IMG/VR virus record: IMGVR_UViG_3300032294_001231
Span: 1-22,773 of that record
DNA from: a virus
DNA: 22,773 nt
Reading direction: 5' to 3' (one strand)
Positions 2,608 to 10,506 of the stretch are shown here, piece by piece (within the stretch, counting starts at the first letter, position 1; each line of letters starts with the position of its first letter). The notes below the pieces were generated by a model. It was given only the letters and a program-made list of their open reading frames with translations, did not search any database and was not told the DNA's origin. The translations under genes were made by a program, and so were the position numbers.

Positions 2608-2621
2608 TTAACACCTGTTAA
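2608..2621 (-). repeat. Dispersed palindrome copy 1 (TTAACACCTGTTAA)
   Basis: Perfect arms TTAACA and TGTTAA. The conserved TAAATG extension is on the minus strand here, so this copy points toward the terminase side. It lies in the divergent intergenic region, 99 bp before the first rightward gene. Confidence 0.85.
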
Positions 2622-2641
2622 CTTGTTCTGAATAAAATGCT

Positions 2642-2668
2642 TTGAATTCTAGGACTTTTTGATATTCT
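2642..2668 (+). promoter_or_regulatory. Weak candidate promoter for the first rightward gene
   Basis: TTGAAT (2642-2647) and TATTCT (2663-2668) are separated by 15 bases, shorter than optimal. Transcription would start about 45 bases before ATG 2720. A better -35 (TTGACA, 2386-2391) lies further upstream but has only a poor -10. Confidence 0.25.
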
Positions 2669-2719
2669 ACAAGTGCAGTACGAAGTAACTCAAATCCAAT
2701 CAACTGAATGAGGTGAATT

Positions 2720-3223
2720 ATGAACTACCAAGCGATGACAAAAGCGGTTACCGAAGCGATCAAGGGTGAGATTAACACTGTTAATAAATGGCAAGTAGCT
2801 GGCGCGCAAGTGCGCGAGTTTTTCGGAACCGAATCCGCGCTGAATGAGGTGAAAGCCCAATTTATCGCAGATGCAATTATCCCTGCGCTCGATAAGCGCC
2901 ACGCGGCTGCGCTCAATGCCGAGCTAGTACGTAAGGGATCAAAAGAATATAACGCGCTCGATGCGGCCGCGCGTGACAAGTGGGAAACGCAAAATCAGGC
3001 CAAAAAAGATGCGCGGTCTACTGCTCACACTATGTTTTCACGCGTGATTGGCTATGCTTTCCCGAAGGAAAAGACCGAATCCGAGCCTAAATCGCTCGAA
3101 ACAAAACTTGTCAATTTGATTAACGATGCAATTGGCAAAATCGAAAAAGCAGAAAATGCCGAATTCGATGCGGTCAACGCCCTTGTCCACCTCCGCGCAA
3201 CCCTTGCGATTATCAGCAAGTAA
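2720..3223 (+). CDS. Unknown 167-residue helical phage protein
   Basis: I do not recognise this protein. It is soluble, rich in Ala, Lys and Glu, and looks almost entirely helical. A segment ALDAAARDKWETQNQAKKDA is followed by charged C-terminal helices ending HLRATLAIISK. The start is supported by GAGGTG (2710-2715) five bases before the ATG. The gene stands alone: it has its own upstream region and a strong intrinsic terminator 15 bp after the stop, which suggests a separately controlled, perhaps highly expressed early gene. A shortened copy of the dispersed palindrome lies inside codons 18-23 (residues INTVNK). Function cannot be assigned. Confidence 0.75.
   Translation: MNYQAMTKAVTEAIKGEINTVNKWQVAGAQVREFFGTESALNEVKAQFIADAIIPALDKRHAAALNAELVRKGSKEYNALDAAARDKWETQNQAKKDARSTAHTMFSRVIGYAFPKEKTESEPKSLETKLVNLINDAIGKIEKAENAEFDAVNALVHLRATLAIISK
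2772..2784 (+). repeat. Dispersed palindrome copy 2 (13-base variant, intragenic)
   Basis: TTAACA-C-TGTTAA with a one-base centre instead of two, followed by the usual TAAATGG. It lies inside the 2720 gene near its start. Confidence 0.7.
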
Positions 3224-3238
3224 TTCGCCCCACTTGGC

Positions 3239-3264
3239 AACCCCGACCTCGGTCGGGGTTTTTT
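3239..3264 (+). terminator. Intrinsic terminator
   Basis: AACCCCGAC (3239-3247), loop CTCG, GTCGGGGTT (3252-3260): a 9-bp GC-rich stem followed directly by a T run (3259-3264). It lies 15 bp after the stop of the 2720 gene. Confidence 0.92.
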
Positions 3265-3334
3265 ATTGCCTGTGGTTTCCGACCCTTTTGATGATAGTTC
3301 CCCCCTACTGATGATGATGCAGCAACACAACTTA

Positions 3335-3348
3335 TTAACAGCTGTTAA
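3335..3348 (-). repeat. Dispersed palindrome copy 3 (TTAACAGCTGTTAA)
   Basis: A fully perfect 14-bp palindrome. The TAA extension is on the minus strand. It lies in the noncoding region after the terminator. Confidence 0.85.
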
Positions 3349-3370
3349 TGCAATATGTTGCAGAGAGCTC

Positions 3371-3409
3371 TGTTCCGCGTTGTTCCGCGTTGTTCCAGTC
3401 GCTGGAACA
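3371..3409. repeat. Tandem TGTTCCGCGT repeat plus TGTTCC hairpin
   Basis: Two exact 10-bp units (3371-3380, 3381-3390) and a third that begins TGTTCC then turns into an 8-bp perfect inverted repeat with a 3-base loop (3391-3409). This is the core of a wider cluster of the same hexamer reaching 3683. Confidence 0.8.
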
Positions 3410-3505
3410 GGCAAAACCGTTGGTACGCCTACGTTTTGGGGGTTTTTTGTGTGTTTGTTCCATTGTTCCATATATATACCCCCCCTACCCAAACCTGAGG
3501 GACTA

Positions 3506-3520
3506 GTTTACAATGTAAAC
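3506..3520. promoter_or_regulatory. Candidate operator GTTTACA-A-TGTAAAC
   Basis: Seven-base perfect arms around a single A. A related GGTTTGTAAACC follows at 3528-3539. Similar sequences overlap the start of the noncoding gap at 16822 (GTTTACAAAGTAA) and the promoter at 18437 (ACAATGTAAAC), which suggests a regulator site. Confidence 0.45.
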
Positions 3521-3629
3521 CATGATGGGTTTGTAAACCAACGTGGCCTTCGGCAGGTGGTGTAATGAGCGGAACACTGGAACACAACCGACATTTATTC
3601 GCGTAACACATTGATCTCAAAGGACATTC

Positions 3630-3884
3630 ATGCGTATCTCAGACCGGAACAAACCCATCCAAACCGGAACAGAACTCGGAACAAGCCCATTCTGCACATT
3701 ATGTGGCTCAGAAATTGACCCACCAAAGCGTCGCCTGATAACGTCTTTGTGTATGCCATGCGGCGAGGTGGAAGCGCGGAAGGTGAAGCATTGTGTCGTG
3801 CCCCTGCACAAGTCGAACTACATCGTCGTGCGTGATAGGGATTTGTTAACAGGTGTTAATCAAAAGGGAGGGATCGTCAAATGA
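3630..3884 (+). CDS. Small zinc-ribbon protein
   Basis: An 84-residue protein with four cysteines as CxxC...CxxC (C22, C25, C41, C44), a treble-clef or zinc-ribbon arrangement that would bind one zinc ion. The C-terminal part (PLHKSNYIVV...GVNQKGG) resembles a segment I recall from other short phage proteins of unknown role. AAAGGA (3619-3624) lies five bases before the ATG, which fixes the start. The first 18 residues are encoded by DNA containing three GGAACA hexamers of the upstream repeat cluster. Palindrome copy 4 lies in the last codons (residues LTGVN). The stop overlaps the next start (ATGA). Nucleic-acid or protein binding is likely, but the partner is unknown. Confidence 0.75.
   Translation: MRISDRNKPIQTGTELGTSPFCTLCGSEIDPPKRRLITSLCMPCGEVEARKVKHCVVPLHKSNYIVVRDRDLLTGVNQKGGIVK
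3846..3859 (+). repeat. Dispersed palindrome copy 4 (TTAACAGGTGTTAA)
   Basis: Perfect arms. It lies within the last codons of the zinc-ribbon gene, 21 bp upstream of the next ATG, and is followed by TCAAAAGGGAGG, which includes that gene's ribosome site. Confidence 0.85.
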
Positions 3885-3985
3885 AACTAGACGCAAACGA
3901 ATGGGCGGCAATCGCCGCTGCGTTTTTGGGAGCCATACTCGGTGCAGTATTGGCAGTGCTCATCATGCTATTTAGGAGTTTCTGA
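3881..3985 (+). CDS. 34-residue single-span membrane protein
   Basis: A short polar start (MKLDANEW) is followed by one long hydrophobic helix of Ala, Leu, Ile and Val and a basic end (FRSF), so one membrane span with the C-terminus probably inside the cell. GGAGG (3867-3871) supports the start, and ATGA overlap couples it to the gene before. Its stop overlaps the next start (TGATG). Tiny membrane proteins of this kind in phage early regions can be lysis helpers or exclusion factors; nothing here decides. Confidence 0.65.
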   Translation: MKLDANEWAAIAAAFLGAILGAVLAVLIMLFRSF

Positions 3986-4071
3986 TGGACAACTTAGACG
4001 TTGTTGGCCTGATATGTTTCTGCGTGTTAATTGCGATGGCGGTTTCCGAATACTTGGGACTGTTGCAATGA
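3985..4071 (+). CDS. 28-residue membrane peptide
   Basis: MDNLDVVGLICFCVLIAMAV is followed by SEYLGLLQ: an acidic start, one hydrophobic span with two cysteines and a short polar tail. AGGAG (3974-3978) lies six bases before the ATG, and the gene overlaps both neighbours (TGATG before, ATGA after). The precise interlocking with flanking genes argues that it is translated. It may act with the 34-residue membrane protein just before it. No function is recognised. Confidence 0.55.
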   Translation: MDNLDVVGLICFCVLIAMAVSEYLGLLQ

Positions 4072-4274
4072 AGTTGATCGACAAGAAAACCGGCAAGGAA
4101 GTACAGGTCGGCGATAGCTTGATCCGCAAGAACTACAAAGGGTTCAAGCATCGGTATGAGGTGCTCGACATCAACAAGGACTCCATTCACGTGCGAAAGC
4201 TCGGAGCCAACGATGCTTGGGTGTATTTGAACGTGCAGCCAGAAGCGTTGCAACTGACATGGGTGGTGATATGA
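4068..4274 (+). CDS. Unknown 68-residue small basic protein
   Basis: The protein begins MKLIDKKTGKEVQVGDSLI. It is short, basic and beta-rich, like the small SH3-like or KOW-like folds seen in phage accessory proteins (inference from pattern only). The frame is open further upstream to 3942, but that part is antisense to sense codon use of the membrane peptide, and the ATG at 4068 forms an ATGA overlap with that peptide's stop. It ends in an ATGA overlap with the next gene. Confidence 0.65.
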   Translation: MKLIDKKTGKEVQVGDSLIRKNYKGFKHRYEVLDINKDSIHVRKLGANDAWVYLNVQPEALQLTWVVI

Positions 4275-4426
4275 GTGACGCCGAGTGGGATGAGTACATT
4301 GACGTGCTGTACGAGCGGTGGGTGGCTGAGCATGAAGCGTATGCGTTCGAGGATAACTACGAGCCGTTCGAGCAGTGCAAATTATACTTTCGAACTGTCA
4401 ACCTACAACAAGTTAACAGGAGTTAA
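4271..4426 (+). CDS. Unknown 51-residue acidic protein
   Basis: The protein begins MSDAEWDEYIDVLYERWVAE and is very acidic and aromatic, probably helical. Such charge could suit a DNA mimic or an inhibitor of a host enzyme, but this is only a guess. ATG 4271 overlaps the previous stop; a longer frame starting at 4217 lies inside the upstream gene and is not favoured. The final codons and the TAA stop are contributed by palindrome copy 5, so the repeat truncates or defines this gene's end. Confidence 0.6.
   Translation: MSDAEWDEYIDVLYERWVAEHEAYAFEDNYEPFEQCKLYFRTVNLQQVNRS
4413..4426 (+). repeat. Dispersed palindrome copy 5, carrying a ribosome binding site
   Basis: TTAACAGGAGTTAA: one arm base changed (TG to AG), creating AGGAG. 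It is followed by TAA then the ATG of the 4430 gene. The same 14 bases supply the stop of one gene and the ribosome site of the next. Confidence 0.9.
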
Positions 4427-4429
4427 TAA

Positions 4430-5287
4430 ATGAAGAAAATCTACTACGAGCAGTACAAGAACTTGTACGAGTCGATCAAGCCGATACGTGGCAGGTCAGT
4501 CGAAGTCCGACCCATCGGTGAGCGGCGCAGGGATTGGGAGGTGATCGAGATGGACAAAGATGTTGTGGCATGCGTCTTGTATCACACACAGGTGGTGCGT
4601 TACTACCCAGATGGCAGGATCGGGGTGCAGTGTGGTGGTTGGCAAACCCCATCCACTGCCGACTTCATCCACATCCACTCGCCGTGGCAATGCGTCAAGC
4701 GTAAGGGCAAGTTATGGGTGATCGTGCCCAGTGCAACGGAGCAGTACATGTTCTACCCCATACCGAGAGAGGGTGAATTGACATTCCAGCCAACAGAAAA
4801 CGGGCGGTGGGAACCGACGTCCGAGGTTGTCATCCAGAAACAAGTTGTCAACCGAGAGAAAGCGAAGGAAGCCCGTGCCCCATACCAGCCGTTCCTGCAA
4901 TGGGCTAAGACGTTCATGCAGTTGTCGGACGGGTGGATCATGCACGAGACAAGGAAGTCAGTCATTCCAATGCCGGATGGGTACTTCAACTATCGGGAGT
5001 TTTCCGAGCCGGTGATGTTGAACATGGCGAAGTCGGGCGACGATGCGCAGTACGTGGGAGTCCTGTGTGCGGTGCTATGTGATGGCAGCAATGCGCTAGA
5101 TAGTCGGATAGCCGAGACAACGGCGCGGAACTCTGGTGGGTTTAACTACCCGATAGTTTTTTATGACATGCGGTTTTCGTATGAGCTGTTGAAATCTCGA
5201 ATCTATCGGATGGCAGATAAGGTGTCGTACATATATGACAAGGTGGACGTGCAAGTAACGTGGAAAACGCAGTCGGGCATTTTCTAA
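4430..5287 (+). CDS. Conserved-looking phage protein of unknown function (285 aa)
   Basis: I cannot name a function. The first 75 residues (KPIRGRSVEVRPIGERRRDW, then acidic and beta-rich text with VVRYYPDGRIGVQCGGW) have a pattern I recall in hypothetical proteins of podovirus- and siphovirus-like phages. The C-terminal half is mixed alpha/beta with no obvious catalytic motif or membrane span. The start is fixed by the AGGAG inside palindrome copy 5. The gene ends five bases before a consensus promoter, so it is the last gene of this transcription unit. Length and codon use look intact. Confidence 0.75.
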   Translation: MKKIYYEQYKNLYESIKPIRGRSVEVRPIGERRRDWEVIEMDKDVVACVLYHTQVVRYYPDGRIGVQCGGWQTPSTADFIHIHSPWQCVKRKGKLWVIVPSATEQYMFYPIPREGELTFQPTENGRWEPTSEVVIQKQVVNREKAKEARAPYQPFLQWAKTFMQLSDGWIMHETRKSVIPMPDGYFNYREFSEPVMLNMAKSGDDAQYVGVLCAVLCDGSNALDSRIAETTARNSGGFNYPIVFYDMRFSYELLKSRIYRMADKVSYIYDKVDVQVTWKTQSGIF

Positions 5288-5291
5288 ATAC

Positions 5292-5320
5292 TTGACATAG
5301 GGTAACTATTATGTTATAAT
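5292..5320 (+). promoter_or_regulatory. Consensus sigma-70 promoter
   Basis: TTGACA (5292-5297), exactly 17 bases, then TATAAT (5315-5320): a full match to the bacterial housekeeping promoter. Transcription should begin near 5327 and drive the ATPase-VWA cassette. No overlapping dispersed palindrome is present. Confidence 0.92.
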
Positions 5321-5371
5321 ATGTCTTACAGTGGTAGTAGTAAGAAGTAATCAACCTAAAAGGAGAAACAA

Positions 5372-6472
5372 ATGAGTGCAATCAACTTTGGTCAGTCCGT
5401 GTCGCTCGTCGAGTTTGCGAAAGCTATCGGGCAGGTGGGGCGTGATGTGACGGTGATCGGTCAAGGCGAGCCGGGGATTGGCAAATCCTCCATGCTGAAA
5501 GTTCTTGCCAAGCAGTACCCTGAGTATGCCATTGCGTATATCGACTGTACCTTGCTGGACTTGGGTGACTTTGCCCTGCCATATACAGAAAACGTGTTAA
5601 CAGATGTTAATACAGGGACAGGTAGCGTCACGAAGGTGACTAAGTTCGCACCGAACGCACGGTTCAAGATGCACGAGGGCAAGCCGGTGATCGTGATGCT
5701 TGACGAGATTGGCAAGGCAATGAAGGCGGTCAAGAATGTGTTGTTGACCTTGATGCTGGAGCATCGCATTGGTGACCACTATCTGCCTGAGGGGTCGATT
5801 GTGTTTGGCACTACCAACTTGATGTCCGATGGTGTGGGCGATATGTTGGAAGCGCATGCAAGAAATCGTGTGTGCTTGGTGACTGTGCGTAAGCCCGATG
5901 CAGATGAGTGGATCGAGTGGGCAATTGGTAACGACGTTGATCCGACAATCATTGCGTGGGTCAAGCAGTTCCCGCATGCACTAGCAAGCTACACCGATCT
6001 GTCGCAGAAGGAGAACGCATATATCTTCAACCCGACGCGGGCCGGTAGTGGTGCGGTGGTTACACCAAGAAGTTTGGAGAAGGCGTCGTTCATTGCCAAA
6101 CAACGTAGTGAACTGGGTGATGCGCTGACTATATCTCTGCTGACTGGGACTATCGGTGAGAGTGCGGCACGTGACATGCAAGCGTTCTTCACTGTGGTGG
6201 ACAAGCTGCCATCGTGGGATGCGATATTGAACGATCCGAAAAATGCCAAGCTGCCCGAGGACACGGTTGCCAAATGTATCTTGGTGTTCTCTGCGGTGAC
6301 ACGTGTGAGCAAGGACACGCTAGACAAATGGATGCACTACCTGAAACGCATGGACAAGGAGTGGCAAGCCCTGTTCGCAACAAGCGTGATGAAGTCATCC
6401 GACAAGCAGTCGTTCTGTGTGATGAACAAGGAGTTCAAAGACTGGGCGTTGGAAAACCAGTGGTTGTTCTGA
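5372..6472 (+). CDS. MoxR/CobS-like AAA+ ATPase
   Basis: A 366-residue AAA+ ATPase: Walker A GEPGIGKSS (32-40), Walker B VIVMLDE (106-112), sensor-1 TTN (147-149) and a likely arginine finger in HARNR (162-166). The layout fits the MoxR branch (RavA, CobS, NorQ), ATPases that work with a VWA-domain partner to remodel a protein or insert a metal. The partner follows immediately. AGGAG (5361-5365) supports the start, and a perfect promoter lies upstream. Palindrome copy 6 falls in residues 76-80 (LTDVN), in a loop between the first acidic strand and Walker B where family members vary. The target in the infected cell is unknown; host-factor remodelling is inference. Confidence 0.88.
   Translation: MSAINFGQSVSLVEFAKAIGQVGRDVTVIGQGEPGIGKSSMLKVLAKQYPEYAIAYIDCTLLDLGDFALPYTENVLTDVNTGTGSVTKVTKFAPNARFKMHEGKPVIVMLDEIGKAMKAVKNVLLTLMLEHRIGDHYLPEGSIVFGTTNLMSDGVGDMLEAHARNRVCLVTVRKPDADEWIEWAIGNDVDPTIIAWVKQFPHALASYTDLSQKENAYIFNPTRAGSGAVVTPRSLEKASFIAKQRSELGDALTISLLTGTIGESAARDMQAFFTVVDKLPSWDAILNDPKNAKLPEDTVAKCILVFSAVTRVSKDTLDKWMHYLKRMDKEWQALFATSVMKSSDKQSFCVMNKEFKDWALENQWLF
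5597..5610 (+). repeat. Dispersed palindrome copy 6 (TTAACAGATGTTAA, intragenic)
   Basis: Perfect arms inside the AAA+ ATPase gene. It is read in the only stop-free frame as LTDVN. Confidence 0.85.
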
Positions 6473-6479
6473 TAACAAA

Positions 6480-6493
6480 TTAACAGGAGTTAA
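6480..6493 (+). repeat. Dispersed palindrome copy 7, carrying a ribosome binding site
   Basis: TTAACAGGAGTTAA followed by TAA and the ATG at 6497. It has the same AGGAG-creating variant as copy 5 and lies between the ATPase and VWA genes. Confidence 0.9.
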
Positions 6494-6496
6494 TAA

Positions 6497-7699
6497 ATGG
6501 CTACGAAGTTATCTGCCGAGCAGCGTGTGCAACGAGCGCATGTGTGGCTCATGAAGCATCCGAACTACTGTCTGTATTCAGGCATCTTCATGCTTGGTAA
6601 AACAAGTGTGGAGGATGATGTGCCGACTGCATGTACAGATGGGCGGAACGTGAAGTATGGACGTGCGTTCACAGACAAGTTGTCAGAAGCCGAGCTACGA
6701 GCAGTGATCCTGCACGAGAACTTGCACAAGGCGTTCCGACATCTAACCATGTGGAAGCAGCTATACAAAGAGCATGCGCAGTTGGCGAACATGGCGTGTG
6801 ACTATGTGATTAACCTGATGATCGACGATTCAGATCCGACAGACCAGAACGTGAAGCTGCCTGACTGTGGCTTACTTGATCCGAAGTATCGGGGCTGGGA
6901 TTCGCAGCGTGTGTTCAACGACTTGAAGCAACAAGCTGACAAGGGCTCGGTGCATGTCAAGACCAAAGGCGATCAGGCGGGGCGTGATGTACCAGTGGAC
7001 GATACGCCATCGTTGGATGATCACGACTGGGAGGGCGCTGATGAGATGAGCGGCGAAGAGAAAGAAGTTCTAGCGCGTGACATCGATCAGGCACTACGTC
7101 AAGGCTCGATACTCGCTGGCAAGATGAAAGGCAATATGCCGCGTGAGATCAAGGAAGCGTTGGAAGCGAAGGTTGATTGGCGTCAGGCACTGCGTGAGTT
7201 CGTTACGTCATTCTGTATGGACAAGGATGAATCGACATGGCGTCGTCCTTCTCGGCGGTGGATAGGTGAAGATGTTTACATGCCTAGCTTGATCGGTGAG
7301 TCGGTCGGTCGCATCGTGGTGGCTATCGATATGTCAGGCTCCATTGGTAGTGACGAGATCAGTCAGTTCTTGGGTGAGATTCGCAGCATCTGTGAGAACG
7401 TGAAGCCCGAGGGTATCGACGTGTTGTATTGGGATACTCGCATCGCACAGCACGAGAAGTATGAGCAAGACCATCTGGGTGCGCTGTTAAGTAGTACCAA
7501 GCCTAGAGGTGGTGGGGGTACAGCACCAAGCTGCATACCGCAGTACATCAACGACAAGAAGATCAAGGCAGAGTGCGCCATCATCTTGACCGATGGGTAT
7601 GTGGGTGGTGACTGGGGTAGCAACTGGCCTTGCCCGACGCTATGGGGTATCACGTCGGATGAGGTGAGTGCAATTGGTAAGACGGTTCGTATTCATTAA
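6497..7699 (+). CDS. VWA protein with N-terminal HEXXH metallopeptidase-like domain (DUF2201/CobT-like)
   Basis: A 400-residue partner of the AAA+ ATPase. The N-terminal domain carries HENLH (73-77), the zinc HEXXH motif, with a following helix NMACDYVIN that could give the third ligand. A linker rich in acidic residues (165-190) leads to a C-terminal VWA domain with MIDAS DMSGS (278-282), GGGGTAP around T342 and ILTDGY (363-368). This order is that of DUF2201 proteins, which pair with MoxR ATPases. The ribosome site is inside palindrome copy 7, and the TAA stop falls inside copy 8. Whether the HEXXH site is a working protease is untested. All motif residues look intact. Confidence 0.88.
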   Translation: MATKLSAEQRVQRAHVWLMKHPNYCLYSGIFMLGKTSVEDDVPTACTDGRNVKYGRAFTDKLSEAELRAVILHENLHKAFRHLTMWKQLYKEHAQLANMACDYVINLMIDDSDPTDQNVKLPDCGLLDPKYRGWDSQRVFNDLKQQADKGSVHVKTKGDQAGRDVPVDDTPSLDDHDWEGADEMSGEEKEVLARDIDQALRQGSILAGKMKGNMPREIKEALEAKVDWRQALREFVTSFCMDKDESTWRRPSRRWIGEDVYMPSLIGESVGRIVVAIDMSGSIGSDEISQFLGEIRSICENVKPEGIDVLYWDTRIAQHEKYEQDHLGALLSSTKPRGGGGTAPSCIPQYINDKKIKAECAIILTDGYVGGDWGSNWPCPTLWGITSDEVSAIGKTVRIH

Positions 7700-7709
7700 C
7701 ACGTGTTAA
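7696..7709 (+). repeat. Dispersed palindrome copy 8 (TTAACACGTGTTAA)
   Basis: A fully perfect palindrome followed by TAAATTAAGGAG. Its second to fourth bases are the TAA stop of the VWA gene. Confidence 0.9.
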
Positions 7710-7727
7710 TAAATTAAGGAGAGTGCC

Positions 7728-8594
7728 ATGATTCAGAATAGCGCAATGTTGGTTGACCTGAACATCTCAGTGTGGACAGGTCGCAAGCAGGACAAGCGGG
7801 TGTCGGAAGAGATTGATGCCGCCAAGAGTACCAAGACGAAGGCTGGCAACTATCATAAGAAGCTGCTGGCAGGTACGCAAAAGCTCGACGATTTGCAGAA
7901 ACTTGTTACTGGGATTCGTGCATGGCATTACGCGCAGACGTTGCCGTGGTCGGATGGTGGCTCACGCCTACTACCCATGAAGAACTTCTTTGACTACAAG
8001 GCAACACTCAATGACCTTGAGACGCAGTTCAATGAAGCGGTGGAAGCGTTCTTAACTGACTATCCAACACTTGTATCCGCAGCGGCGTTTCAGTTGGGTG
8101 ACTTGTTCGACTCCGAGGAGTATCCGAACGTGGACAGGTTGCGCGATAAGTTCCGGTTCCGGTTCGTGTTCCTGCCCGTGCCTGACGTTGGTGACTTCCG
8201 TATTGATATTAACGAGCAGCACAAGGAAGAACTCAAAGCGCAATACGAATCGTTTTATGAGAACAAGTTGTCAGAAGCGATGCAAGACGCGTGGGCCCGG
8301 CTCCATGAATGTCTATCCAAGATGAGCGAGAAGCTGGCGAACGCCCCGTCCCCAAGAATGACGAAGGATGGCGAGGTGTACACGCAGATATTCCGCGATT
8401 CGCTGGTGACTAATGCGGTGGAGTTGTGTGAGTTGCTGACCAAGCTGAACGTGACGAACGATGCCAAGTTGGAGAACGCACGTAAGACATTGGAGTCGTT
8501 GATCGTCGGCGTGTCGCCCAAAGACTTGCGTGAGGATGAACACATGCGGTTGGATGTGAAGTCGAAGGTCGATGAAATCCTGAGCATGTTCTGA
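7728..8594 (+). CDS. Probable DUF3150-like protein, third gene of the AAA-VWA cassette
   Basis: A 288-residue, largely helical protein. The opening (LVDLNISVWTGRKQDKRVSE) resembles the start of DUF3150 proteins, which I recall next to CobS-like ATPase and CobT-like VWA genes in phages and mobile elements. That neighbourhood is exactly what is seen here. A coiled-coil-like stretch runs from about 165 to 210, and the protein has no membrane span. Start ATG 7728 follows AAGGAG (7717-7722). The role is unknown; as a constant companion it may be an adaptor or substrate of the ATPase. Family assignment is moderate, from memory and context. Confidence 0.65.
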   Translation: MIQNSAMLVDLNISVWTGRKQDKRVSEEIDAAKSTKTKAGNYHKKLLAGTQKLDDLQKLVTGIRAWHYAQTLPWSDGGSRLLPMKNFFDYKATLNDLETQFNEAVEAFLTDYPTLVSAAAFQLGDLFDSEEYPNVDRLRDKFRFRFVFLPVPDVGDFRIDINEQHKEELKAQYESFYENKLSEAMQDAWARLHECLSKMSEKLANAPSPRMTKDGEVYTQIFRDSLVTNAVELCELLTKLNVTNDAKLENARKTLESLIVGVSPKDLREDEHMRLDVKSKVDEILSMF

Positions 8595-8601
8595 CAATAA
8601 G

Positions 8602-8615
8602 TTAACACCTGTTAA
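8602..8615 (+). repeat. Dispersed palindrome copy 9 (TTAACACCTGTTAA)
   Basis: Perfect arms followed by TAAGGAG, so the conserved extension runs into the ribosome site of the next gene. It lies between the third and fourth cassette genes. Confidence 0.9.
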
Positions 8616-8628
8616 TAAGGAGAGTGTG

Positions 8629-9426
8629 ATGTTGAATTTCGTTAATCCCGAAGAAGCTGAAGGCTGCGAGATACTGAGTATTGTGAAGGACTATCGCAAG
8701 TCGCAGGTCAGTCGGTTCCCTGTCGATGTCAAGTTCGGTACACGGTCGGCTAGGTTCTACGACACTCGGCATCCAGAGAAAGCAATCGCGGCGGTCGTTC
8801 TCGAAAAAGACGATAAGGGCAAAGAGTACTGGGTGATTGAGTCACGACTGATTGAAGCGACACGGTTCACTGGTTCGCGTAGGCATCAAAAACGCACTAC
8901 AGATGTAAAGAAGTTGTTGCGTTACATGCAGGACTACATTCGCACCATATCTGTTGCGGAGATAGCGAATCGGTGGCACAGGGACTTTGAATCAGCAATT
9001 CGAGACTGGATGTACTCCGCAGACAAACTTGTTCGTGATCATTGCACGGTGACAAGAGACGAGTTGATGCGCGAGATACTCCGACTGCAAGCTACTGGCT
9101 ACACACCACAGACAGAGAGGTTTGCACAAATCATCCAAGCAGGTGTGCCTGCATGGGAAGAAAAGATGCGCCGCGAGTCACGCAAGGTGATGCAGGTGTA
9201 TGTGTGCGTAAACACCGATGATACGGTTGAGGTGTACTGCCCCGACAAGTTGGGCTACGCAGGTATCCAAGAAGGTAACAACTTCTATCAATCAATTGAT
9301 GATGCGCCATTATCCATACAACAACAAGTTGCTATGCTGCGAATGATGGAGATGAAAACATTCGTCCCCGAGGTTGGTGTGCGCACTAGCGAGAACGGCT
9401 ATTGGGTCGAGGTGATGGGCGAGTAA
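8629..9426 (+). CDS. Unknown 265-residue protein, fourth gene of the AAA-VWA cassette
   Basis: I do not recognise this protein. It has a beta-rich N-terminal half (about 1-90, with DVKFGTRSARFYDTRHPEKA), a central basic helical part (RRHQKRTTDVKKLLRYMQDY) and a C-terminal beta segment (VYVCVNTDDTVEVYCPDKLG). ATG 8629 is preferred over GTG 8626 because AAGGAGAGTG precedes ATG at the same distance as in the 7728, 18496 and 18889 genes. It shares the cassette's promoter and palindrome spacing, so it probably belongs to the same process as the ATPase and VWA protein. It ends 18 bp before the next promoter. Confidence 0.7.
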   Translation: MLNFVNPEEAEGCEILSIVKDYRKSQVSRFPVDVKFGTRSARFYDTRHPEKAIAAVVLEKDDKGKEYWVIESRLIEATRFTGSRRHQKRTTDVKKLLRYMQDYIRTISVAEIANRWHRDFESAIRDWMYSADKLVRDHCTVTRDELMREILRLQATGYTPQTERFAQIIQAGVPAWEEKMRRESRKVMQVYVCVNTDDTVEVYCPDKLGYAGIQEGNNFYQSIDDAPLSIQQQVAMLRMMEMKTFVPEVGVRTSENGYWVEVMGE

Positions 9427-9444
9427 AAATCTTTGTTGTGGGGC

Positions 9445-9473
9445 TTGACAATGTTCGAGTCTGTTTATAAATT
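9445..9473 (+). promoter_or_regulatory. Promoter with perfect -35
   Basis: TTGACA (9445-9450), followed by TATAAA at 15-base spacing (9466-9471) or TAAATT at 17 (9468-9473). The -35 context CTTGACAATGT is identical to that at 18436. It drives the gene run starting at 9495. Confidence 0.65.
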
Positions 9474-9494
9474 ATAGTCACAACGAGGATTATT

Positions 9495-9767
9495 ATGGAT
9501 CGAAGATTTGTTATCTGGGTAACTATGGATGAGCGCGGCGATTCGATTAGCATCGTTGCGCGAGATAACGAGTCGCTTGAGACCGTCAACATCAAGGAGT
9601 TTCATGGTGCGCCTAAGTTCATAGTCGAGCGGTTCGCTATGCTTAAGTTAACAGATGTTAATAAATCTGCCAAAGGAGAATTTATAGGACGAAGATTGCA
9701 AGACAACATAATTGTTATCTATATTACCTACGATGAATTCCAACAAATAAAGGAAGAGTGCAAATGA
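9495..9767 (+). CDS. Unknown 90-residue protein
   Basis: A small alpha/beta protein beginning MDRRFVIWVTMDERGDSIS, with beta strands at both ends (IIVIYITYDEF) and no known motif. GAGGA (9485-9489) lies five bases before the ATG. Palindrome copy 10 is in the middle (residues LTDVN, 52-56). The stop overlaps the next start as ATGA. First gene after the promoter at 9445. Confidence 0.65.
   Translation: MDRRFVIWVTMDERGDSISIVARDNESLETVNIKEFHGAPKFIVERFAMLKLTDVNKSAKGEFIGRRLQDNIIVIYITYDEFQQIKEECK
9648..9661 (+). repeat. Dispersed palindrome copy 10 (TTAACAGATGTTAA, intragenic)
   Basis: Perfect arms with the TAAA extension, inside the 9495 gene. Its 14 bases are identical to copy 6. Confidence 0.85.
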
Positions 9768-10162
9768 AAACCAAAATCTCAGTTCGTGAAGCAGTAACCC
9801 GCGCTATCAAAGCGCACGGTCCGATGACCCCAAAAGAACTTGCCAAAACTACTGGTAGAGCATCTAGCCGTGTGTACACAGCGATTAGTATGATGAAACA
9901 GAATGGCTATCTAACTAGATTGGGCAATGGGCAATACGCAATAGCCGATGCCCCTGCGTTGACCGCCATAACACCGAATATTGAGCCAGTCAAAACATTA
10001 CCGTCCAAACCAGAGATATCTTTTGCAAAGCAGCTTGGTCGGGCGCAAGCAGAGATCGATAACTTGCAGAAGAAGTTGCAGGATATCACCATCAAGTACT
10101 ACGACAACCTAGCTGTCCTACGTTATCTGGAATCCAAACTCATCATCTCCAAACGCCCGTAA
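9764..10162 (+). CDS. Winged-helix DNA-binding protein with C-terminal coiled coil
   Basis: A 132-residue protein. Residues 5-60 (SVREAVTRAIKAHGPMTPKE, then a helix with SSRVYTAISMMKQNGYLTRL) fit a winged helix-turn-helix: helix, turn, recognition helix and wing ending GNGQYAI. After a Pro-rich linker, residues 90-115 form a coiled-coil-like helix (AEIDNLQKKLQ), so it probably acts as a dimer. ATG 9764 (ATGA overlap, AGGAAGAG before it) is preferred over GTG 9758. It is a candidate regulator for the dispersed palindrome or the local promoter, not proven. Confidence 0.75.
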   Translation: MKTKISVREAVTRAIKAHGPMTPKELAKTTGRASSRVYTAISMMKQNGYLTRLGNGQYAIADAPALTAITPNIEPVKTLPSKPEISFAKQLGRAQAEIDNLQKKLQDITIKYYDNLAVLRYLESKLIISKRP

Positions 10163-10164
10163 CC

Positions 10165-10506
10165 ATGCCAACACCTGAGAGCAAAGTTAAGGATAAGGTG
10201 AAGAAGTTATTAGCCGCGCATGGAGCCTACCACTTCATGCCAGCTACGCATGGCTACGGATCGTCAGGAGTTCCTGATATTGTCGCTTGCCTACATGGTA
10301 GATTTATTGGTATTGAGTGCAAGGCAAATGGCAATAACCCCACTGCGCTTCAAGTAAAGAATTTGCGGGAACTATCATCGGCGGGGGGCATAGCAATCGC
10401 CGTTGACGAAACGGGACTCGACAAACTAAAAGTTTTGTTAACAGACGTTAATAAATTGAGCGATGGGGTCTTTCTTAATTTTCTAAAAAATTTTGAAGGA
10501 GATTGA
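10165..10506 (+). CDS. VRR-NUC domain nuclease
   Basis: A 113-residue stand-alone VRR-NUC nuclease of the PD-(D/E)XK superfamily. Conserved features are E5 in the first helix, GSSGVPDIVACL with D38, IECKANG with E51 and K53, and Q63 in the following helix. These proteins cut branched or nicked DNA, and in phages they sit in replication or recombination neighbourhoods. The gene starts two bases after the previous stop with no clear ribosome site, so it is probably translationally coupled. Palindrome copy 11 lies after the catalytic core (LLTDVN, 91-96) and may have been added to the tail. Confidence 0.9.
   Translation: MPTPESKVKDKVKKLLAAHGAYHFMPATHGYGSSGVPDIVACLHGRFIGIECKANGNNPTALQVKNLRELSSAGGIAIAVDETGLDKLKVLLTDVNKLSDGVFLNFLKNFEGD
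10438..10451 (+). repeat. Dispersed palindrome copy 11 (TTAACAGACGTTAA, intragenic, last copy)
   Basis: One arm base differs (CGTTAA), with TAAA following. It lies inside the VRR-NUC tail. No further complete copy was found to the end of the window. Confidence 0.8.

Follow-up and report, generated by a model that had tools for sequence, protein, structure and literature searches.

What do short palindromes scattered through the early genes of a phage do, and which protein reads them? The question is raised by a 22,773-bp virus record (IMG/VR record IMGVR_UViG_3300032294_001231; the window hereafter), in which a reading of the sequence alone had picked out eleven dispersed copies of TTAACA-NN-TGTTAA. 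The evidence suggests that the sites are bound by a phage protein whose family has not been described, most likely the product of the first early gene (2720-3223), and that this protein probably turns the early genes off. We favour, with moderate confidence, the account that the palindromes are stoperator-like operators, which that product would read and so block early transcription.

All eleven copies are present, as seven perfect palindromes, three with one mismatch and a 13-bp form read directly in the sequence (Table 1). They are confined to 2608-10451, and the remainder of the window holds none with 0 or 1 mismatch. In 200 dinucleotide shuffles neither the perfect form (mean 0.005) nor the form with up to one mismatch (mean 0.055) occurred more than once, which bears out the claim that the copy number is beyond chance. 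Perfect palindromes of any sequence with 6-bp arms and a centre of 0-4 bp number seven in the window and at most two in 100 shuffles. When up to three mismatches are allowed, the excess is small (19 matches vs a mean of 10; 1 of 100 shuffles equals it). The copies lie in short intergenic gaps of the early block, with several inside genes. In the copies at 4413 and 6480, the variable centre provides an AGGAG which, as read in the sequence, appears to serve the gene that follows as its ribosome-binding site.

Using the VWA protein, we gathered 39 relatives and searched 24 of their records whole for the motif. It is present in 20 of the 24 with up to one mismatch, in 3-14 copies each, while the reversed pattern occurs 0 or 1 times. 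Copies in 15 mapped loci stand at matching places before the counterparts of genes 3630, 4430, MoxR, VWA, DUF3150 and 8626, or within the MoxR gene, where L007, L009, L036, L035 and L038 have a copy that corresponds in place to the in-gene copy of the window. Individual phages leave some of these places unfilled, but the copies are conserved in position. The relatives reach 65 kb and their copies stay in the same early block, as in a full-length relative (G002; 11/11 matches within 8.3 of 65 kb) and in G012 (7/8 matches within 8.5 kb). Over 192 unique relative sites (near-copies kept, four relatives with other palindromes excluded), conservation spans 22 bp and forms a palindrome, TTTATTAACANNTGTTAATAAA, its right half somewhat better conserved than its left and its centre least conserved. 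The TAAA that the sequence-only reading had added to the motif is therefore the right half of this longer dyad. Many relatives contain at least one match with a 1-bp centre (up to one mismatch).

The four remaining records (L030, L035, L038, L043) carry other palindromes in the same block. The kinds found in relatives include TTATCA, TAAACA, ATAACA, TACTGTC and TAATGTC, and a motif-free scan, in which 153 of 215 loci pass the cut-off (lgP <= -9), returned more than ten; these locus counts are not independent, since many of the loci overlap one another or stem from contigs that are nearly identical, and one call (TATATA in L093) is a false AT repeat. Arms are near invariant over 156 unique TACTGTC-N-GACAGTA sites selected at up to one mismatch. 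The first 50 kb of each of the named terminase relatives HTVC027P, HTVC023P and DSL-LC04 contain no strong dispersed palindrome. Among three bacterial genomes with relatives of the VWA gene, Spiribacter has none and the other two have only weak palindromes, in 3 copies. In L254 (Spiribacter salilacus), the MoxR and VWA homologues adjoin large unannotated genes on a 619-kb bacterial scaffold without dispersed palindromes.

Comparison of the loci indicates that site letters and first early gene co-vary. We tabulated 95 loci that have a motif call, a terminase and MoxR/VWA in one stretch. The family of the 2720-3223 protein (the 2720 family) is present in 42/42 TTAACA and 14/14 TAAACA loci, and in 14/24 loci with other site types, whereas loci with GTC-N-GAC sites (the GTC class) have an unrelated first-gene family, CL2, in 14/15, the exception being L205. 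After thinning to 45 representatives (VWA <93% identical), the corresponding figures are 10/10, 8/8, 8/17 for other types and 9/10 for the GTC class. The two families never occur in the same locus, and a profile comparison between them found no relation. Left out of the table were 17 covered loci below the lgP cut-off (L010, L013, L038, L077, L083, L092, L134, L149, L182, L187, L198, L199, L201, L202, L206, L218 and L230), several of which bear TTAACA, TAAACA or ATAACA sites. A ribbon-helix-helix-like first gene in L043 (G024_006) was dropped as a candidate, a CL2 homologue having been found further upstream.

Within the 2720 family, residue 97 is Asp in 19/19 TTAACA vs 0/11 TAAACA representatives, and it is the sole column of 157 that is fixed in the former and absent from every row of the latter. 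The same column test, which could include only genes within the extent of L085 and none past its end, gave 0/501 for the terminase large subunit (TerL), 0/186 for the small subunit (TerS) and 0/59 for the zinc-ribbon gene; a portal-like structural gene gave 1/792, on just 7 and 5 rows. In a TerL tree, L085 (TAAACA, Leu97) is sister to L065 (TTAACA, Asp97) with support 99/96, the two proteins being 92% identical. L085 has six TAAACA-type sites, four of them perfect, and none of the TTAACA type, and despite Leu97 its first gene retains TTAACA-type residues at 61, 64, 65, 98 and 104. Elsewhere in the tree L192 (TAAACA) and L155 (TAAACC), both with Thr97 and with A as base 2, stand beside L112 (Asp97; TTAACA half-sites with a 1-bp centre), support 100/99. 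L030 (TTATCA) has Ser97, and L111 has Asn97 with too few sites to judge.

Over the 50 rows of this tree, the 11 site labels require 16 changes vs a shuffled mean of 29; 16 is somewhat too high because L075 and L093 are labelled as other despite TTAACA-like sites. The labels of L010, L013, L038, L067, L077 and L134 were set by hand from earlier results, and the placement of the long branches L134 and L233 is uncertain. In this tree TTAACA phages surround the main GTC group, and therefore CL2 probably replaced a 2720-type gene there, with the sites rewritten. Domains of the first gene may also be exchanged. In L177 (1930-2421) and L193 (3344-3820), which have ACTGTC sites, the gene looks chimeric, with a C-terminus 62-66% identical to the AATGTC group and a centre 67-92% identical to the ACTGTC group; this fits but is not decisive, because their gene 4430 and MoxR also lean to the ACTGTC group.

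These patterns make the 2720-3223 protein a better candidate reader than the four proteins that had been proposed, which fit poorly. Among 21 TTAACA loci spanning the region, the Cro-like protein 10702 is present in 4 and the winged-helix protein 9764 in 11. The MarR protein 12435 is present in all 21, yet its distances fail to track the letters (partial correlation 0.18, p 0.12, vs 0.61 for the first gene in the same 15 loci); it is also missing from 4/17 GTC-type loci, and in L177, which has ACTGTC sites, it is nearer to the AATGTC group. The 19790 protein, found in 15/20 records, keeps a near-constant helix in phages of five site types (TTAACA, TAAACA, TTAAAC, ATAACA and TACTGTC); the helix reads VSRxxVYxWFxG, with I in place of V in one case. 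The AlphaFold2 model of the 2720-3223 product is all helical, with a mean predicted local distance difference test score (pLDDT) of 89.

Where the sites lie relative to promoters bears on what the bound protein might do. We surveyed the operator region of 60 representatives, which contains 111 promoter-like matches (at least 10 of 12 bases), taking sites with up to two mismatches, a few of which look accidental. The nearest site centre falls +20 to +60 from the expected start for 46 of the 111 matches vs 4.6 expected, and at none of the 111 does a site overlap the -35 to -10 region. In L012, L016, L020, L025, L031 and L043, a 12/12 promoter is followed by a site and then by the MoxR start. Promoter-like matches in the window block are not above chance (15 vs 13.4 in shuffles), and weight is therefore placed on near-perfect ones.

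The tie of the sites to promoters and gene starts could also mean that the phage protein bound at them activates early or middle transcription, or sets its timing, instead of blocking it, which we regard as rather unlikely. A site lies at -100 to -40, a possible activator position, for 13/111 matches vs 7.0 expected. Searches for tyrosine recombinase (PF00589), serine recombinase/resolvase (PF00239) and ParA-type (PF01656) genes found 0 in 20 records with positive controls (two records are under 58 kb; ParB was not searched), so classical lysogeny is not indicated and lytic timing would be a sufficient use. However, the excess of sites is mostly downstream of the start, clear of the promoter itself, and pure timing would give no cause for the many changes of letters.

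We see little chance that the sites work as RNA elements, either leader hairpins read by a protein or an RNase, or attenuators. Many do lie 30-60 nt past the expected transcript start; some natural stretches fold to -12.9 kcal/mol and a 24-mer from the 22-bp consensus to -7.6; and a terminator-like T5 run follows within 14 nt after 17/159 unique TACTGTC and 7/30 TAATGTC sites (6/232 for TTAACA and 1/97 for TAAACA). However, DNA sequence, not RNA pairing, is what is conserved. The arms are nearly constant within one phage, and changes usually break the dyad and are unmended on the opposite side: among 112 one-mismatch sites, 100 break a pair and 12 are of the G-U type, and none of the 38 two-mismatch sites, 7 of which are mismatched at paired positions, shows a compensatory change. 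The would-be loop is the least conserved part, and three natural TTAACA stretches fold at just -1.4 to -2.8 kcal/mol. Upstream of MoxR in L133, L145 and L146, a TACTGTC palindrome is followed by a T run as a possible terminator-like stem; operator and attenuator may coincide there.

It is improbable that a host protein reads the sites and that the letters differ since the hosts differ. The phages do come from many metagenomes, but the letters track the first phage gene, both in the GTC-class replacement and at residue 97 in the nested switches, and differ even between L085 and L065 with their closely similar TerL. Dispersed palindromes serve as partition or packaging sites in other systems, but the N15-like dispersed centromere suggested by the sequence-only reading is very improbable here, since no ParA-type match was found in the 20 records (control positive 14/14; ParB not searched) and the sites of mapped relatives adjoin gene starts of one early block.

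Several further observations weigh against the reading of the palindromes as blocking operators of the first-gene product. At the lgP cut-off, 62/215 loci have no motif call. Neither first-gene family is present in 10/24 loci with other site types; L010 has Ala97 with mixed TTAACA/TTATCA half-sites; and in L205, with GTACTGTC sites, the first gene belongs to neither family, a third reader family being possible. No match to a known DNA-binding family or fold was obtained for either of them: the strongest Pfam hit, an HMG box, was found in 3/26 members (best E 0.0011) and fell short of the curated cut-off in the single member displayed, and fold searches of the Protein Data Bank with both models gave nothing above chance (the CL2 model has a middling pLDDT of 73.5). 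When gene distances were compared with site letters in Mantel rankings (loci thinned at 93% VWA identity, L093 excluded), gene 4430 (partial 0.48) and VWA (0.33) stood above the first gene (0.27) on 22 loci, and the zinc-ribbon gene reached 0.46 vs 0.15 for the first gene on 18; the first gene leads on the subsets for MarR, wH12226, g8626 and VRR-NUC (our working label for the Hjc-like nuclease 10165). In the window itself, the site nearest downstream of the MoxR promoter (5292-5320) is ~270 bp away, inside the gene.

The earlier suggestion of dispersed operators of the stoperator type is nevertheless supported by the matching places, the turnover of letters, the position downstream of promoter-like matches and between genes, and the lack of RNA covariation. 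In the mechanism that we propose, the first-gene protein would be made early and, as a symmetric dimer, would occupy the palindromes at its own gene and at the start of most genes in the block, with residue 97, in a predicted long helix (82-113), reading base 2 of the half-site. Bound protein would stop RNA polymerase shortly after the start and again at gene boundaries, as stoperators may do, thereby shutting down the early genes, and would limit its own synthesis via the copies next to and within the first gene. From the many changes of letters, we infer that the protein may also silence incoming phages with the same letters. Such silencing would favour new letters, and the turnover is what a role in immunity or exclusion would produce. 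A broader proposal, tentative and in our view rather doubtful, is that these ~65-kb, apparently virulent and widespread phages carry an immunity-type operator code, in which a first-expressed protein of a new DNA-binding family uses about ten palindromes to silence the early genes of its own phage and of incoming phages with the same letters. The letter sets, of which there are more than ten, would have arisen by a one-residue change or by replacement of the reader, with all sites rewritten each time.

In the window, the terminase genes run leftward from 2262 (the large subunit assigned by match to named phages, the small subunit by position), and the plus-strand early block extends rightward from them. 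The first early gene stands at its start, and a terminator-like hairpin and small genes come next; in the stretch scanned, 19 terminator-like matches were found vs 10.7 expected. Further along are genes for a MoxR-type ATPase (5372), a DUF2201/VWA protein (6497), a DUF3150 protein (7728) and an Hjc-like nuclease (10165), with replication genes such as DNA polymerase A (13725) downstream. The family of 6497-7699 is named 'HNH endonuclease' in PHROGs, a label that is doubtful because Pfam gives metallopeptidase-like and VWA-like domains. In the record of L030 (G015, with pieces L057 and L058), a second DNA polymerase A-like frame (21822-23060) lies downstream of the first, is 55% identical to the DNA polymerase A of the window and is truncated by the record end.

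Table 1. Operator copies and associated features of the early block, in window coordinates.
Feature	Position	Strand	Remarks
Operator copy TTAACACCTGTTAA	2608..2621	.	0 mismatches; 5' of first early gene
First early gene, 167 aa, putative reader, residue 97 Asp	2720..3223	+	Family comparison and residue 97
13-bp copy TTAACACTGTTAA, 1-bp centre	2772..2784	.	Within first gene; copy and flanks encode I-N-T-V-N
Terminator-like hairpin, T tail	3239..3260	+	9 pairs, 6 G-C; directly 3' of first gene
Operator copy TTAACAGCTGTTAA	3335..3348	.	0 mismatches
Operator copy TTAACAGGTGTTAA	3846..3859	.	0 mismatches; in end of zinc-ribbon-like gene 3630-3884
Operator copy TTAACAGGAGTTAA	4413..4426	.	1 mismatch; centre resembles ribosome-binding site of gene 4430
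Sigma-70-type promoter match TTGACA-17-TATAAT (12/12)	5292..5320	+	5' of MoxR-type ATPase gene
Operator copy TTAACAGATGTTAA	5597..5610	.	0 mismatches; within MoxR-type gene 5372-6472
Operator copy TTAACAGGAGTTAA	6480..6493	.	1 mismatch; precedes DUF2201/VWA gene 6497-7699
Operator copy TTAACACGTGTTAA	7696..7709	.	0 mismatches; precedes DUF3150 gene 7728-8594
Operator copy TTAACACCTGTTAA	8602..8615	.	0 mismatches; precedes gene 8626-9426
Promoter-like match TTGACA-17-TAAATT (10/12)	9445..9473	+	5' of gene 9495
Operator copy TTAACAGATGTTAA	9648..9661	.	0 mismatches; within gene 9495-9767
Operator copy TTAACAGACGTTAA	10438..10451	.	1 mismatch; near end of Hjc-like nuclease gene 10165-10506

A named phage also carries such sites. 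In Planktothrix phage Pag-Yong1 (L233; OL906435, 15100-65014), recorded from the culture-collection strain Planktothrix agardhii FACHB-1261, our scan of 49.9 of 65.0 kb found 15 perfect and 28 near (up to one mismatch) copies of GGTTCAG-N-CTGAACC. Several directly precede annotated genes, the record table lists no repeat feature, and the sites are spread more widely than the single-block sites of the mapped relatives. Its first leftward gene (UMO76074) is a candidate reader by position only. No paper on Pag-Yong1 turned up in the literature searched. The records OQ594354, OL906435 and PP438419 bear different cyanobacterial names but agree in length (65,014) and in their TerL match values, and may be one phage deposited three times.

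If the proposed account is true, these phages would provide a second, unrelated solution to phage-wide silencing besides the Cluster A stoperators, and one that works in phages without a sign of lysogeny in the searches made. It would also give a function to two unannotated protein families. The loci would form a natural series of specificities and readers, in which the joint change of letters in a regulator and ten scattered sites is directly testable, and the immunity prediction could be tested in Pag-Yong1 as a named test system.

The sequence-only reading knew of no described system with this motif; no literature search aimed at these letters was made, but systems of this kind have been described. 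The nearest known system in behaviour is that of the Cluster A mycobacteriophage stoperators (L5, Bxb1, TipsytheTRex). As described in parts of PMC6550527 and PMC9283540, these phages have many copies of a short site in short intergenic gaps, site and repressor co-diverge, and a block of elongation has been proposed for the bound repressor; the sites are 13-bp, asymmetric and oriented with transcription, the repressor is a monomer with two DNA-binding domains, and the phages carry an integrase or parABS. The present system likewise repeats a single site many times in the short gaps between genes, with several copies also in genes. In contrast, its sites are dyad-symmetric, its candidate reader has no recognised fold, and its 20 searched records contain no tyrosine or serine recombinase or ParA-type gene. 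We therefore do not file it as a Cluster A member, as far as asymmetric sites and integrase or parABS were tested. As to the Cluster A reader type (N-terminal helix-turn-helix plus stoperator domain), searches with the 2720 family gave no significant match.

Nearest in form are the 17-bp repeats of the Cluster O phage Corndog. The parts of PMC4351075 that treat them describe 34 copies of TGTTCGG-NNN-CCGAACA with invariant arms and a variable centre, genome-wide, many of them intergenic and not closely linked to starts, with one letter set in the five phages compared; according to the same parts, no stable lysogens were recovered and the function is unknown. The present sites differ in being confined to one early block in mapped relatives, near starts, with letters that differ between relatives. 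They number 3-14 copies in the 20 TTAACA records and 28, at up to one mismatch, in Pag-Yong1. Among 50,697 named phages we found no megablast match, and no match to either first-gene family at E 0.01 in single-sequence tblastn; Corndog's own proteins were not compared. The start-associated sequences (SAS) and extended SAS (ESAS) of Cluster K are repeated elements before a subset of gene starts, as set out in part of PMC3203893. Unlike the present sites, SAS are 13-bp, asymmetric and tied to translation starts, and ESAS consist of imperfect inverted repeats of 17 bp, in which the spacer varies. The Nostoc cyanophages A-1 and N-1 have tens of conserved, typically intergenic motifs, for which stoperators are one suggestion in the relevant part of PMC4916379; these motifs differ from ours in being described there as asymmetric, and that part names no reader protein. 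In summary, the kind of system is known from the Cluster A stoperators and the Corndog repeats, while what looks new is the identity of the protein families and the way in which the letters turn over.

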